This document shows, piece after piece, positions 12,564 through 17,121 of a DNA stretch of 24,927 nt. This DNA comes from a virus. Position numbers and translations under genes: made by a program. Position 1 is the stretch's first letter; each line of letters opens with the position of its first letter. The stretch lies in the IMG/VR virus record IMGVR_UViG_3300032282_001532, positions 1-24,927 of that record; one strand, given 5' to 3'. The notes under the pieces are model-generated. The model was not told the DNA's origin and searched no databases. It worked only from the letters and a program-made list of their open reading frames with translations.

Positions 12564-12589
12564 TTTTTTAATATAGGAGTGATAATAAA

Positions 12590-13315
12590 ATGGCATTACC
12601 AAAAATTGATGCACCGGTTTATGAAATAGATTTACCGTTATCTAAGAAACATATTCGATTCAGACCTTTTCTTGTAAAAGAACAAAGAAATCTGATGATG
12701 GCCATGGAATCTGATGATAAAGAAACTATCGAAAAAAACATTAAACAGGTACTACATAATTGTACCTTAACAACAGATGTCAATATTGATTCATTACCAA
12801 TTATTGATGTTGAATTTTATTTCTTAAATTTAAGAGCTCGTTCAGTTGGTGAAGTAATTGAAACCAAATATCGTTGTGAAAACGAAGTTGATTCAAAACC
12901 ATGTAATAATTTAATGGAAACTTCTATTAATCTGTTAAATATTAATGTTGAAATGAATGACAAGGCCAAAGACCTTATTCAATTAACTGACACAATTGCA
13001 ATTAAATTAAAGTATCCAGAGTTTGCATTATTAGATAGAGCAACCAAGTTTGATAGTGCTACTGACATGGCATTTCAAATGATTGTAGAAAGTATTGAAT
13101 ACATCTATGATGGCGAACAATACTATTATCCAAATGAAACAGACCCAACAGAATTAATTGAGTTTGTTGAATCGTTAAATGCCGAACAGTTTACTAAAAT
13201 TGAAGATTTCTTTAATAATCTTCCTACTTTAAACAAAAAAATTGAAATAACTTGTAGTAAGTGTGGATACGACCACACGATAGAGGTGGAAGGGTTAGAC
13301 AATTTTTTCGGTTAA
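12590..13315 (+). CDS. gp26: Baseplate hub assembly protein gp26 / tail-assembly chaperone
   Basis: 241 residues (T4 gp26, 208) with the T4-baseplate family pattern: IDLPLSKKHIRFRPFLVKEQ, then a Met-rich helix and FYFLNLRARSVGEVIETKY. Four cysteines, C96/C105 and C222/C225 (CSKCGYDH), could form a zinc ribbon. SD AGGAGTG precedes the ATG. The last codons before the stop are AAT TTT TTC GGT TAA and contain a T TTT TTC slippery heptamer. A -1 shift there continues into the next frame for 62 codons. Placement directly before two long tail proteins matches the G/GT chaperone position of other tailed phages. Confidence 0.85.
   Translation: MALPKIDAPVYEIDLPLSKKHIRFRPFLVKEQRNLMMAMESDDKETIEKNIKQVLHNCTLTTDVNIDSLPIIDVEFYFLNLRARSVGEVIETKYRCENEVDSKPCNNLMETSINLLNINVEMNDKAKDLIQLTDTIAIKLKYPEFALLDRATKFDSATDMAFQMIVESIEYIYDGEQYYYPNETDPTELIEFVESLNAEQFTKIEDFFNNLPTLNKKIEITCSKCGYDHTIEVEGLDNFFG
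13283..13309 (+). promoter_or_regulatory. Programmed -1 frameshift site (SD-like stimulator plus TTTTTTC)
   Basis: The heptamer TTTTTTC at 13303-13309 is in the X XXY YYZ register of the gp26 frame (aaT TTT TTC). Two codons later comes the zero-frame stop TAA at 13313-13315. An SD-like GAGGTG at 13283-13288 (then GGAAGGG) lies 8-14 bases upstream of the heptamer, the arrangement known to stimulate -1 shifting in bacterial dnaX. I see only weak hairpins downstream. Function is inferred from sequence. Confidence 0.7.
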
Positions 13316-13497
13316 CATTTCGTCATGACAATTTGAGAAATTATTACAAGACTAACTTTTCATTAATGCAACATCACAAATATAGTCTTACTGAACTTGA
13401 AAATATGATACCTTGGGAACGTGATATTTACGTTAATATGCTTATACAATACATTGACGAAGAAAACGAAAAGATTAAGCAAAGACAAGGTAAATGA
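13309..13497 (+). CDS. gp26 -1 frameshift extension (62 codons; gp51/T-like)
   Basis: This frame has no convincing start of its own: the only upstream start is a GTG at 13261 without SD, inside gp26 and giving an odd Arg-rich leader, and the first internal ATG (13366) would drop the conserved-looking beginning. Read by a -1 shift at TTTTTTC it adds 62 residues to gp26 residues 1-240, giving about 302 residues. The extension (HDNLRNYYKTNFSLMQHHKY, SLTELENMIPWERDIYVNML) looks like a real helical domain, similar in style to small hub-catalyst and tail-chaperone T domains. Its stop overlaps the next ATG (ATGA). If the shift does not occur, it could be a short independent protein from 13366. Confidence 0.7.
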   Translation, partial: RLTFRHDNLRNYYKTNFSLMQHHKYSLTELENMIPWERDIYVNMLIQYIDEENEKIKQRQGK

Positions 13498-15182
13498 AAA
13501 GTAAATACGAGCAAGCAGCGAATACTAGAAAAAGAGGCCTAGTCGGTTCAATAACCGATAGGCTTGTTGCTGGCCAAGGTATTGGTAAATCGTTTGGTGC
13601 TGGTGTTTCAGAAACTCTTGCTGCAAAAACCACAGGTATCAAAGAAAAATTTGACCCGTTGAACATTGCTAAAATGTTTACCGGTAATTTAGGCATGGCA
13701 CTTCTTGGTAAAATTACCGGTAGAAAATCTGAAGATATGGAATACTTCCTTAATAAAGGTCGTAAGAAAGGTGAACCATATCGTGCGGTCTCTGCACCAG
13801 AAACAAAAGTAGGTAAAGTTGATACTGCCTTTTACACCAATGTTCGTGAAGGTCAAAAAGGTTCGTTAAGAAAAGGTGACAATGTTGCTACTGTTGCAGC
13901 CAGATTAACGAATATATTAAAAGCTTTTTATGAAAAAGAAACTTTAAATAGAGAACTTGCACAAAATTTTGATGAAGAAATTATGCAAGAAGATCAAAGA
14001 CGCCATGACGATTTAATTGCAGCAATTAAAAAAATACAAAAAGGTTCTATTTCTGATAAAGATTTAGAAAAAATTAAGAAAGTAGAAAAAGAATCTAAAA
14101 TTACCGAAACTGCACCACTTACACCCAACACACCCACTACACCTGCGGCACCAACATCCACACCATCTATACCAAAGATGGAAGAAAAAGAAATTGCTAA
14201 AAAAGTTACTGAGATTAAACCAGGAATAAAAGAGCCTAGTTTGGCTGAACCCGTTCTTACACCAAAAATAGAAAAAACTGTGCCAAGTTTTGGTGCAAAA
14301 ACTCCAAAAACAGAAATACCATCAATACCTACTGCAATAAAAGAAACTGTGCCTGCAGCAAAAACTGGTGGAGTATCAACTGCAACTAAAGCCGCCGTTG
14401 GTGCAGCTGGTATGGCTGGTGTAATTACTGATGCCCTCGCCGATGTAGGCATCACAAATCCATTTGCTAAACAAGCCATTTTAGGTAATGTTAATAAAGA
14501 AAGTGGTTTTCAAAATGTTGGAGAAAATTTAAACTACAAAACATCTAAACGAGTTCGTGAAGTATTTCCTAGTGTGACCGGTCAAATGACTGATGAACAA
14601 ATACAACCATACTTAAATAATCCTGAAGGATTATCTGAATTGGTTTATGGCCATGAGACCAAAAAGGGTAAAGAATTAGGTAACACAGAACCTGGTGATG
14701 CATGGAAATACCGTGGCCGTGGATTAATACAGTTAACCGGTAAATCAAATTATGAACAAATTGGTAAAGAATTAAAAATTGATTTAGTTAAAAATCCTGA
14801 ATTGGTTAATGACCCAGCAATCGCACCAAAAGTGGTTGCAGTATACATTAAGAAAAGATTAAAAGATAAAATCAATAGTTTTACTAATCAAAAAGATGCC
14901 AATAGAGATATTACACAAGCAATTGTTGGTTCAAGAGTTGATTTGACCAAAGGCATTGGTGCTCAACAATTGGCTAAAGTTGAGAACTACACGACATTAA
15001 ATTCTGGTGAAAGAATATATGCATCATCGAATGAAAATCAAGAACTAAAACAAGAACCATCTGTTACAAATGTTGCGGTAAATAACACCAAAACAATAAT
15101 TAATACAAGTAATAGAGAACCAAAGGTACTGTCTGGTCCACAGATAGAAGATTATCCAGTATTAGCATCTAATATAACATAA
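13494..15182 (+). CDS. Tail protein with paralogous N-terminal module and C-terminal GH19 muralytic domain
   Basis: 562 residues. Residues 10-145 share a module with the next gene (LITDKL-type helix, KEKFDPLNIAKMFTG, LLGKITGR). Residues 200-290 are a Pro/Thr/Lys-rich linker (PLTPNTPTTPAAPTSTPSIP). Residues 305-485 resemble GH19 chitinase/endolysin domains: a catalytic Glu candidate E336 in NVNKESGFQNVGENLNY and the diagnostic YRGRGLIQLTGKSNYEQIG. Phage GH19 domains cleave peptidoglycan sugar chains (established for the family). The ATG overlaps the frameshift extension stop (ATGA), which places it where tape-measure proteins follow chaperones. Probably a virion-associated lysin supplying the activity missing from gp5 (inference). 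An endolysin role alone is less likely given the structural context. Confidence 0.82.
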   Translation: MKSKYEQAANTRKRGLVGSITDRLVAGQGIGKSFGAGVSETLAAKTTGIKEKFDPLNIAKMFTGNLGMALLGKITGRKSEDMEYFLNKGRKKGEPYRAVSAPETKVGKVDTAFYTNVREGQKGSLRKGDNVATVAARLTNILKAFYEKETLNRELAQNFDEEIMQEDQRRHDDLIAAIKKIQKGSISDKDLEKIKKVEKESKITETAPLTPNTPTTPAAPTSTPSIPKMEEKEIAKKVTEIKPGIKEPSLAEPVLTPKIEKTVPSFGAKTPKTEIPSIPTAIKETVPAAKTGGVSTATKAAVGAAGMAGVITDALADVGITNPFAKQAILGNVNKESGFQNVGENLNYKTSKRVREVFPSVTGQMTDEQIQPYLNNPEGLSELVYGHETKKGKELGNTEPGDAWKYRGRGLIQLTGKSNYEQIGKELKIDLVKNPELVNDPAIAPKVVAVYIKKRLKDKINSFTNQKDANRDITQAIVGSRVDLTKGIGAQQLAKVENYTTLNSGERIYASSNENQELKQEPSVTNVAVNNTKTIINTSNREPKVLSGPQIEDYPVLASNIT

Positions 15183-15183
15183 A

Positions 15184-17121
15184 ATGATTATAATAAAAAC
15201 TTTAGGTCAAGATACCTTTTCATGGAACCCAAATGCTTTCAATAGAAGAGGCCATTGGTTCCTTTTAGCTGAAACGGGTAGTTACATTCGTGTAGCAACT
15301 AAGGCCGAAATGTCCAAATTAGGCACTCCAAAAAAACAAGATGAAGCACAAGTTGATGTCAAAACTGGTGAAAGAAAGATGTCTTATCAACGTGCTGCTG
15401 AAATTAGAAAGAAAAGTCTTAAAAACTTAATCACGGATAAATTGGTTGAAGGTGAAGGCATTGGTTCTTCGATTGGTGGTAGTATATCAGAAAAAATGAA
15501 AGCAAGAACAACTGGATTAAAAGAAAAGTTTGATCCGTTGAACATTGCTAAAATGTTTACAGGTAAATTAGGTTCAGCATTACTTGGTAAAATTACTGGC
15601 AGAAGTAAAGAAGATATTAGATATTTTTCTGGCGACAAAAAACAAAAAGAAACAACATCAAGAACATCTTATGCTAATGAAAAATTAAACAAATCTGATA
15701 CTGGATTATATTCAGCAATTTCAGAAGGCAATACACAATCAATGAAAAAAGGTGATGGCATCGCTACTGTATTGGCTAGAATGTATAACCTTATTAAATC
15801 TCAACAAATTGAATCATTGAAAAGATTTCAAATTGAAAAAAACTTTAAAAAGATTAAAGAAAAACAAAAAGACAAATGGAACAAAGAACTTATTCAAGCT
15901 TTAGGTGGTAAAAAATCATTTACAATTGTAAAAGAAACTAAAAAAGAAGAAAGTGGTAGCCTATTAGATATAATTTCTGGTATTATTGCTGGTATTAAAG
16001 CTTGGGTTTTAGGAAAACTGGAAAATTTTAAGACAGCCGCTAAAGCAGTTTTGCCAGTTATTGGTGCGGCCGCTTCTGCCCTTGGTGTTGGTAAAACACT
16101 ACTTGATAAGATTACAAAACCAAGCTCGACTACCGCACCTATTGATCAAAAAAATAAAGAAGTTAAACCTGAAGAAAAGAAAGAAGTTAAGCCTGAAGAA
16201 AAGAAACCTGGCGATAAAAAATTAAATAAAGAAATTACCAAAGAATTAGAAAAAACCGGCGATAGTGATAACAAAAAACCAAAAGCAACAAAAGTTGGTA
16301 AAACTGAAGAAGTTCCAAAAGCCAGTAAAGTATCAACAGTACTAAAAGGTGCTAAAGGTGTTGTAAAATACTTAACTAAACTACCAATGATTGGTGTTAT
16401 TGCTGGTGCTTATGAAATGATTGGAACAATACAACAAGCAATTGATGACCATGAAGCAGGAAAAATTACAGATGGTGAATTGAAAAAAACAGTTATATCA
16501 ACCACCGCATCTATTATTACTGCTGGTGCTGGTACTTCTATTGGAGCAACAATTGGTGCTACTGTAGGTTCCGTTGCCGGACCTATTGGTACATTTGTGG
16601 GTGGTGCAGCTGGTGGTATTGCGGGTTATATTGGTGGTAAATATGCAGGTAAAGCTGGCGCAGAAAAGTTATTTGATTATGTTTCAAAATCGAATAGTGA
16701 AGTTGAACCAAAAATAGATGCAGTAAGAACAGAAGAACAAATGGTTAAATCCACGGATCAACCAAAATCGGAAGGCATTAAGAAATCAAAAGTTCCAGCT
16801 GCAATAGACGGTGCAACACAATCAACTTCTACACCAGCAAGTATGCCAACAGCAACGGCTTCTGCAACTGAACCACAAACGGCTGTACCTGTTTCCACAC
16901 CAAGTATGACTGACGCAAGATTACAATCTACAATGGATAAAAATAATGAGATGAAAGCTGTTGGTAAATCATCAATCAATTCTACCATTATTGATAACTC
17001 ACAGTCAATCAATGCAGCAGCTGGTGGTGATGGTGGTATTATGGTTGATTCTTCAGTTTCACCTAGAATAGATGATTCAACATTACAACGAGTTCATAGA
17101 CAAAACCTACGACCAATATAA
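15184..17121 (+). CDS. Candidate tape-measure/hub protein, paralogue of the upstream gene
   Basis: 645 residues. A unique 65-residue N-terminus precedes the shared module (residues 67-205), which at DNA level keeps a 26-base identical block with the upstream gene. It continues with a Lys/Glu-rich coiled-coil region (210-245), a hydrophobic stretch near 257-310 (LLDIISGIIAGIKAWVLGKL), a tandem Lys/Glu/Pro repeat near 326-341, a second hydrophobic patch near 388-425 and a Gly/Ala zipper at about 437-493 (IGATIGATVGSVAGPIGTFV). The tail is Ser/Thr-rich. Length is near T4 gp29 (590), and hydrophobic Gly-rich segments are typical of tape-measure proteins, so a gp29-equivalent role is plausible but unproven. 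It starts one base after the upstream stop without an SD, suggesting coupled translation, and ends four bases before the terminator. Confidence 0.75.
   Translation: MIIIKTLGQDTFSWNPNAFNRRGHWFLLAETGSYIRVATKAEMSKLGTPKKQDEAQVDVKTGERKMSYQRAAEIRKKSLKNLITDKLVEGEGIGSSIGGSISEKMKARTTGLKEKFDPLNIAKMFTGKLGSALLGKITGRSKEDIRYFSGDKKQKETTSRTSYANEKLNKSDTGLYSAISEGNTQSMKKGDGIATVLARMYNLIKSQQIESLKRFQIEKNFKKIKEKQKDKWNKELIQALGGKKSFTIVKETKKEESGSLLDIISGIIAGIKAWVLGKLENFKTAAKAVLPVIGAAASALGVGKTLLDKITKPSSTTAPIDQKNKEVKPEEKKEVKPEEKKPGDKKLNKEITKELEKTGDSDNKKPKATKVGKTEEVPKASKVSTVLKGAKGVVKYLTKLPMIGVIAGAYEMIGTIQQAIDDHEAGKITDGELKKTVISTTASIITAGAGTSIGATIGATVGSVAGPIGTFVGGAAGGIAGYIGGKYAGKAGAEKLFDYVSKSNSEVEPKIDAVRTEEQMVKSTDQPKSEGIKKSKVPAAIDGATQSTSTPASMPTATASATEPQTAVPVSTPSMTDARLQSTMDKNNEMKAVGKSSINSTIIDNSQSINAAAGGDGGIMVDSSVSPRIDDSTLQRVHRQNLRPI
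16159..16206 (+). repeat. Tandem 24-bp direct repeat (2 copies) in the tape-measure candidate
   Basis: Two adjacent 24-base units, 16159-16182 and 16183-16206, differ by a single silent base and encode EVKPEEKK twice. The repeat lies in a charged linker between hydrophobic segments, so copy-number change would alter linker length without breaking the frame. Confidence 0.9.

Follow-up and report, generated by a model that had tools for sequence, protein, structure and literature searches.

A conserved T_TTT_TTC site and a probable programmed −1 frameshift in a gp26-like hub chaperone gene of an uncultivated T4-like phage

In the 24,927-nucleotide stretch of viral DNA analysed here (the window; positions 1 to 24,927 of IMG/VR record IMGVR_UViG_3300032282_001532), a single gene very probably gives rise to short and long forms of a T4-like tail (baseplate-hub) assembly chaperone through a programmed −1 frameshift. 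This reading is supported by the conservation of a slippery heptamer, its register, an upstream SD-like element and the −1 reading frame, by the lack of any start codon for the extension in a third of homologous loci, and by the colinearity of the predicted fusion with T4 gp51. Most ribosomes would terminate at the TAA codon, yielding the gp26-like short form of 241 aa, while a fraction would be paused by pairing of GGAAGGG with 16S rRNA. The paused ribosomes would shift by −1 on T_TTT_TTC as both Phe tRNAs re-pair with TTT TTT, and would read 62 further codons to produce a 302-aa long form. This form is the counterpart of T4 gp51, a protein that T4 encodes in a separate, paralogous gene. By analogy with lambda G and GT, the two forms may chaperone hub/tape-measure assembly. 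We infer the shift itself, its efficiency, the effect of the SD-like element and the chaperone role from comparative evidence.

The initial annotation of the window had placed TTTTTTC in slippery register at the end of the gp26 frame, with an SD-like GAGGTG/GGAAGGG upstream, a −1 frame open for 62 codons and an ATGA overlap with the next gene, and direct reading of the sequence bore out each of these features (Table 1). The gp26-like ORF ends in AAT TTT TTC GGT TAA, with one sense codon (GGT) between the heptamer and the stop, and the −1 frame runs from CGG to AAA for exactly 62 codons before TGA. TTTTTTC in register occurs once among the 6,678 codon pairs of the 23 window ORFs, and this uniqueness, together with recurrence in 127 of 133 non-identical loci, argues that the junction did not arise by chance. 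The window gp26 is at most about 39% identical to the cultured-phage homologues sampled. In profile comparisons the extension matched the 'baseplate hub assembly catalyst' family (phrog_634) and, less strongly, phrog_150 at its C-terminus (E=3e-8), the latter being the first sign of family members that carry both parts in one ORF.

Table 1. Features of the gp26-like locus and its downstream genes in the window.
Feature	Coordinates	Strand	Evidence
AGGAG, ribosome-binding site of gp26-like ORF	12575..12579	+	sequence
gp26-like ORF, short form (TAC-N), 241 aa	12590..13315	+	Pfam PF12322 T4_baseplate E=4e-58; phrog_150 'baseplate hub' E=3e-63
Predicted long form (TAC-NC), 302 aa, −1 shift at 13303-13309	12590..13497	+	colinear with T4 gp51
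GAGGTG, outer SD-like element	13283..13288	+	sequence
GGAAGGG, SD-like element, 8-nt spacer to heptamer; GGAGGG in many relatives	13288..13294	+	
Slippery heptamer T_TTT_TTC, in register	13303..13309	+	sequence and conservation
TAA, 0-frame stop of gp26-like ORF	13313..13315	+	sequence
−1 extension, 62 codons + TGA (cyanophage 'gp51', TAC-C)	13309..13497	+	phrog_634 E=2e-31; third-position substitutions
ATGA, extension stop (TGA 13495-13497) overlapping next gene's start (ATG 13494)	13494..13497	+	sequence
Next gene, 562 aa, GH19/endolysin-like domain in C-terminal half	13494..15182	+	PF00182 E=3e-7; phrog_181 E=7e-38
645-aa tail gene, hydrophobic and glycine-zipper stretches, possible tape measure	15184..17121	+	hydrophobic segments 258-309; inference only

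Scans of viral contigs, one with the window protein as query and one with the S-PM2 protein, yielded 160 homologous loci; broad scans with a KVP40-like gp26 query returned no locus, and those with a Rhizobium gp26 query returned one. The scored set comprised 133 non-identical loci, including named phages and one Rhizobium-like contig. Conservation of the heptamer, its register and the open −1 frame, which the initial annotation had proposed as a check, was found in 130 of these 133 loci, with the SD-like element present in most; because the loci are related to one another, this and the codon counts below do not represent independent events. The heptamer was TTTTTTC in 127 cases, TTTTTTG in 2 and TTTTTTT in 1, and it almost always lay one codon ahead of the stop. 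The 130 loci span the window lineage, cyanophages (Kyanoviridae), KVP40-like Vibrio phages, Angelvirus PX29, and Rhizobium and Sinorhizobium phages, and T_TTT_TTC is also found in Ceceduovirus AS-szw, S-SM1, ACG-2014i and Vibrio phage Bakedbeans. The three loci lacking a T6 heptamer are Vibrio D524, Salmonella SFP10 and, presumably, T4 gp26. The termination context differs in a few phages: the 0-frame stop directly follows the heptamer in MA01 and S-CRM01 (TTT TTC TAG/TAA), and the 0 frame of Pelagibacter phage Mosig continues for eight codons beyond it, one being usual.

Codon choice at the slip site was compared with that at a conserved internal Phe-Phe pair of the same protein. The slip-site pair was encoded by TTT TTC in 127 of 130 loci, whereas the control pair (n=118) was TTC TTT in 51, TTT TTT in 39, TTC TTC in 14 and TTT TTC in 14. 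The base immediately 5′ of the slip-site pair was T in all 130 loci, although the residue it belongs to varies (S, N, D, A, G or T), as against 20 of 118 for the control. These counts indicate that an X_XXY_YYZ heptamer is maintained in register and that the site is more strongly conserved than the encoded protein requires. Upstream, an element of the GGAGGG, GAGGG or GGAAGG type ends 8-9 nt 5′ of the heptamer in most loci, with near-constant spacing. The Glu codon preceding the conserved Gly of this element was GAG in 79 of 112 loci, compared with 27% GAG usage overall. Predicted anti-SD pairing averaged −7.6 kcal/mol, versus −5.1 kcal/mol for synonymous shuffles, and was individually extreme in only 21% of loci. 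No strong stem-loop was predicted downstream of the heptamer (mean z of −0.6 against neighbouring stretches).

The extension, described at the outset as protein-like, behaves as coding sequence. Substitutions among relatives numbered 6489, 3646 and 17252 at the first, second and third positions of the −1 frame, and the extension is present in 578 phage records (E<=0.01); this third-position bias and wide occurrence indicate that it is protein-coding. The proposal that it has no usable start of its own also held for the window, where no ATG is available and the only candidates are a GTG at 13261, upstream of the slip and shared by few relatives, and a TTG roughly nine codons inside the extension. 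The conserved core of the extension has no ATG, GTG or TTG ahead of it within the open −1 stretch in 43 of 130 loci. An ATG does lie ahead of the core in about half of the loci, often just past the gp26 stop, so that separate initiation is possible there, and it is this ATG that cyanophage annotators have taken as the start of a separate 'gp51'. The records of S-WAM1, DSL-LC03 and ACG-2014i leave the extension unannotated, and other cyanophage records list it as a separate 'hub assembly catalyst'.

These annotations raise the alternative that the extension is a separate small gene, translated from its own start or by termination-reinitiation and never fused to gp26. Many cyanophage records present it in this way, an ATG closely follows the gp26 stop in P-SSM2 and S-PM2, and Vibrio D524 carries TAATGG without a heptamer. 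Against this, a third of the loci have no start at all while the heptamer hardly varies, and T4 gp51 occurs naturally as a fusion that is colinear with the product of the shift. We consider a separate gene very unlikely and, because 43 of 130 loci are startless, reject it as a general explanation. A compatible extension of the preferred reading is that frameshifting produces the fusion everywhere and that lineages with a junction ATG initiate independently as well. This would accommodate the S-PM2-like loci, of which 44 of 68 have an ATG before the extension core, as well as the KVP40-like, Rhizobium and Sinorhizobium phages that have one there too. Such a double route is unlikely for the window lineage itself, which lacks the ATG, and overall we regard it as rather unlikely.

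A fused frame could also arise from RNA polymerase slippage on the T6 run, since six consecutive T residues are present in 130 of 130 loci. A run of this length is short for bacterial transcriptional slippage, however, and the constant spacing of the SD-like element and the unvarying codon register implicate the ribosome, making a transcriptional origin highly improbable. That the junction reflects a sequencing or assembly error, or a decayed gene fusion, has a negligible probability: coding constraint is evident in the extension, and the recurrence of the same junction in 130 non-identical loci, cultured phages included, refutes it.

We compared the predicted products with the T4 hub proteins. 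The predicted fusion aligned with T4 gp51 over 240 columns (hhalign 99.5%, E=5e-23), and the alignment crossed the frameshift junction unbroken; the extension alone aligned with the gp51 C-terminus (96.6%). The short form aligned with T4 gp26 (99.7%, E=3.5e-26), which lacks the extension and itself matched only the N-terminal part of T4 gp51 (99.3%). Both homologies that mark the T4-like TAC family were thereby recovered, that of the short form to gp26 and that of the extension to the gp51 C-terminus, and PHROGs places T4 gp26 and T4 gp51 together in phrog_150. The initial annotation was right to link the locus to these two hub genes, and the hhalign results add that gp51 is itself the long-form paralogue. 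Since gp51 is colinear with the fusion and gp26 corresponds to its N-terminal part only, T4 encodes a short and a long form in a pair of paralogues. These are separate genes on opposite strands, without a frameshift (gp51, 249 aa, occupies 2192-2941 of locus L082 on the minus strand), whereas the window lineage appears to obtain both forms from one gene by frameshifting. T4 gp26 and gp51 are listed as hub assembly chaperones in a review that also describes gp51 as needed for assembly yet missing from the completed particle (PMC3004832).

For structural comparison, a T4-type gp51 served as the natural equivalent of the long form. Its AlphaFold2 model (pLDDT 84) and that of the window short form (pLDDT 85) have a similar predicted order of elements, with three additional C-terminal helices in gp51. 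A search for homologues of solved structure, including any solved chaperone, gave no significant sequence match, and a PDB fold search with the gp51 model likewise gave none. In a PDB fold comparison, the highest probability among the matches listed (0.30) belonged to the HK97 tail assembly chaperone gp13 (2ob9; E=3.7, not significant; TM 0.40 by target length; 60 columns), a likeness that is suggestive only.

Ackermannviridae, among them Vi01, CBA120 and SFP10, retain the −1 extension after gp26, often unannotated, and it was found in 280 of their records. Their junctions read ATT TTC or GTT TTC without a canonical heptamer, as in ATT TTC ATT TAA TTTTTG (junction sequence GAAATTTTCATTTAATTTTTG), and no ATG precedes the extension core in most of the Ackermannviridae loci read; pSal02 does carry one at the junction. 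Vibrio D524 combines CTT TTC with a TAATG overlap, and its distant relative Bakedbeans keeps T_TTT_TTC; comparison of the two sequences is consistent with a possible switch from frameshifting to re-initiation.

Downstream of the extension, neither the 562-aa nor the 645-aa gene matched a tape measure family in Pfam and PHROG profile searches; judging from its hydrophobic and glycine-zipper stretches, the 645-aa gene may be the tape measure. The two genes are paralogous, above all over their first ~150 aa, a relationship missed by a first BLASTP and detected at E=1.6e-48 without composition adjustment.

The lambda G/GT heptamer is GGGAAAG, different from that of the window. The arrangement resembles lambda G/GT in its short and long forms, in a −1 shift placed close to where the short frame ends and in a position in the tail cluster (Xu, Hendrix & Duda 2004). 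At the level of arrangement and signal, the window locus has the lambda-type layout of both forms from one gene, and the G/GT-like logic put forward in the initial annotation gains support from the conserved signal, the startless loci and the colinear gp51 fusion. No sequence homology of this family to any solved chaperone was detected, and its structural likeness to HK97 gp13 is only weak. The TAC locus of Vandenendeviridae (phage Adele, PMC12846349) also has a polyT site at which a −1 shift occurs close to the 3′ end of TAC-N, but its motif is GTTTTT and the phage family is different.

Tail-assembly chaperones (TAC-N/TAC-NC) have been identified in T4-like phages (Vladimirov, Gautam & Davidson 2022, Virology 566:9-15). 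The PRFect paper (PMC10885494) credits that study with T4-like phages that, in place of frameshifting, carry one gene for the short protein and another for the long fusion, and the phage Adele paper (PMC12846349) credits it with polyT −1 frameshift signals in T4-like TAC-N genes. The initial annotation had asked whether such a frameshift was already described for this lineage; as relayed by these two papers, in principle it was. The principle is already reported for T4-like phages, and the window locus is a well-supported new example of it, not a new system, belonging to the same protein family and coming from an uncultivated relative. What is added here is a large conservation test, an SD-like element with codon-choice evidence, and the Ackermannviridae exception. 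The family in the 2022 study is said to be that of T4 gp26/gp51, and its abstract reportedly describes frameshifting as conserved in several T4-like groups, with the T4 group using separate genes.

We tentatively propose, as a possibility somewhat short of even, that an SD-like-stimulated −1 frameshift is ancestral for T4-like hub chaperones and that the essential T4 genes 26 and 51 represent a duplication that replaced it; the Ackermannviridae extension, which lacks a canonical heptamer and mostly a start, would then imply a non-canonical slip at the NTT TTC junction or a re-start at AUU. Cyanophage gp51, which is the same extension as in the window, has been reported to reach ~20% of T4 gp51 in length and to resemble it at the C-terminus, and was treated as a shortened separate gene in a main text that does not mention frameshifting (Sullivan et al. 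2010, PMC3037559). Its truncated appearance would be explained if the missing ~200 residues come from gp26 by frameshifting. The extension occurs in several hundred public genomes and, in those examined, has been either labelled a separate hub catalyst or overlooked. The same function appears to depend on frameshifting in some T4-like lineages and on a pair of paralogues in T4, and the two kinds of lineage would offer a useful natural comparison for asking why phages keep a fixed ratio of short to long chaperone.
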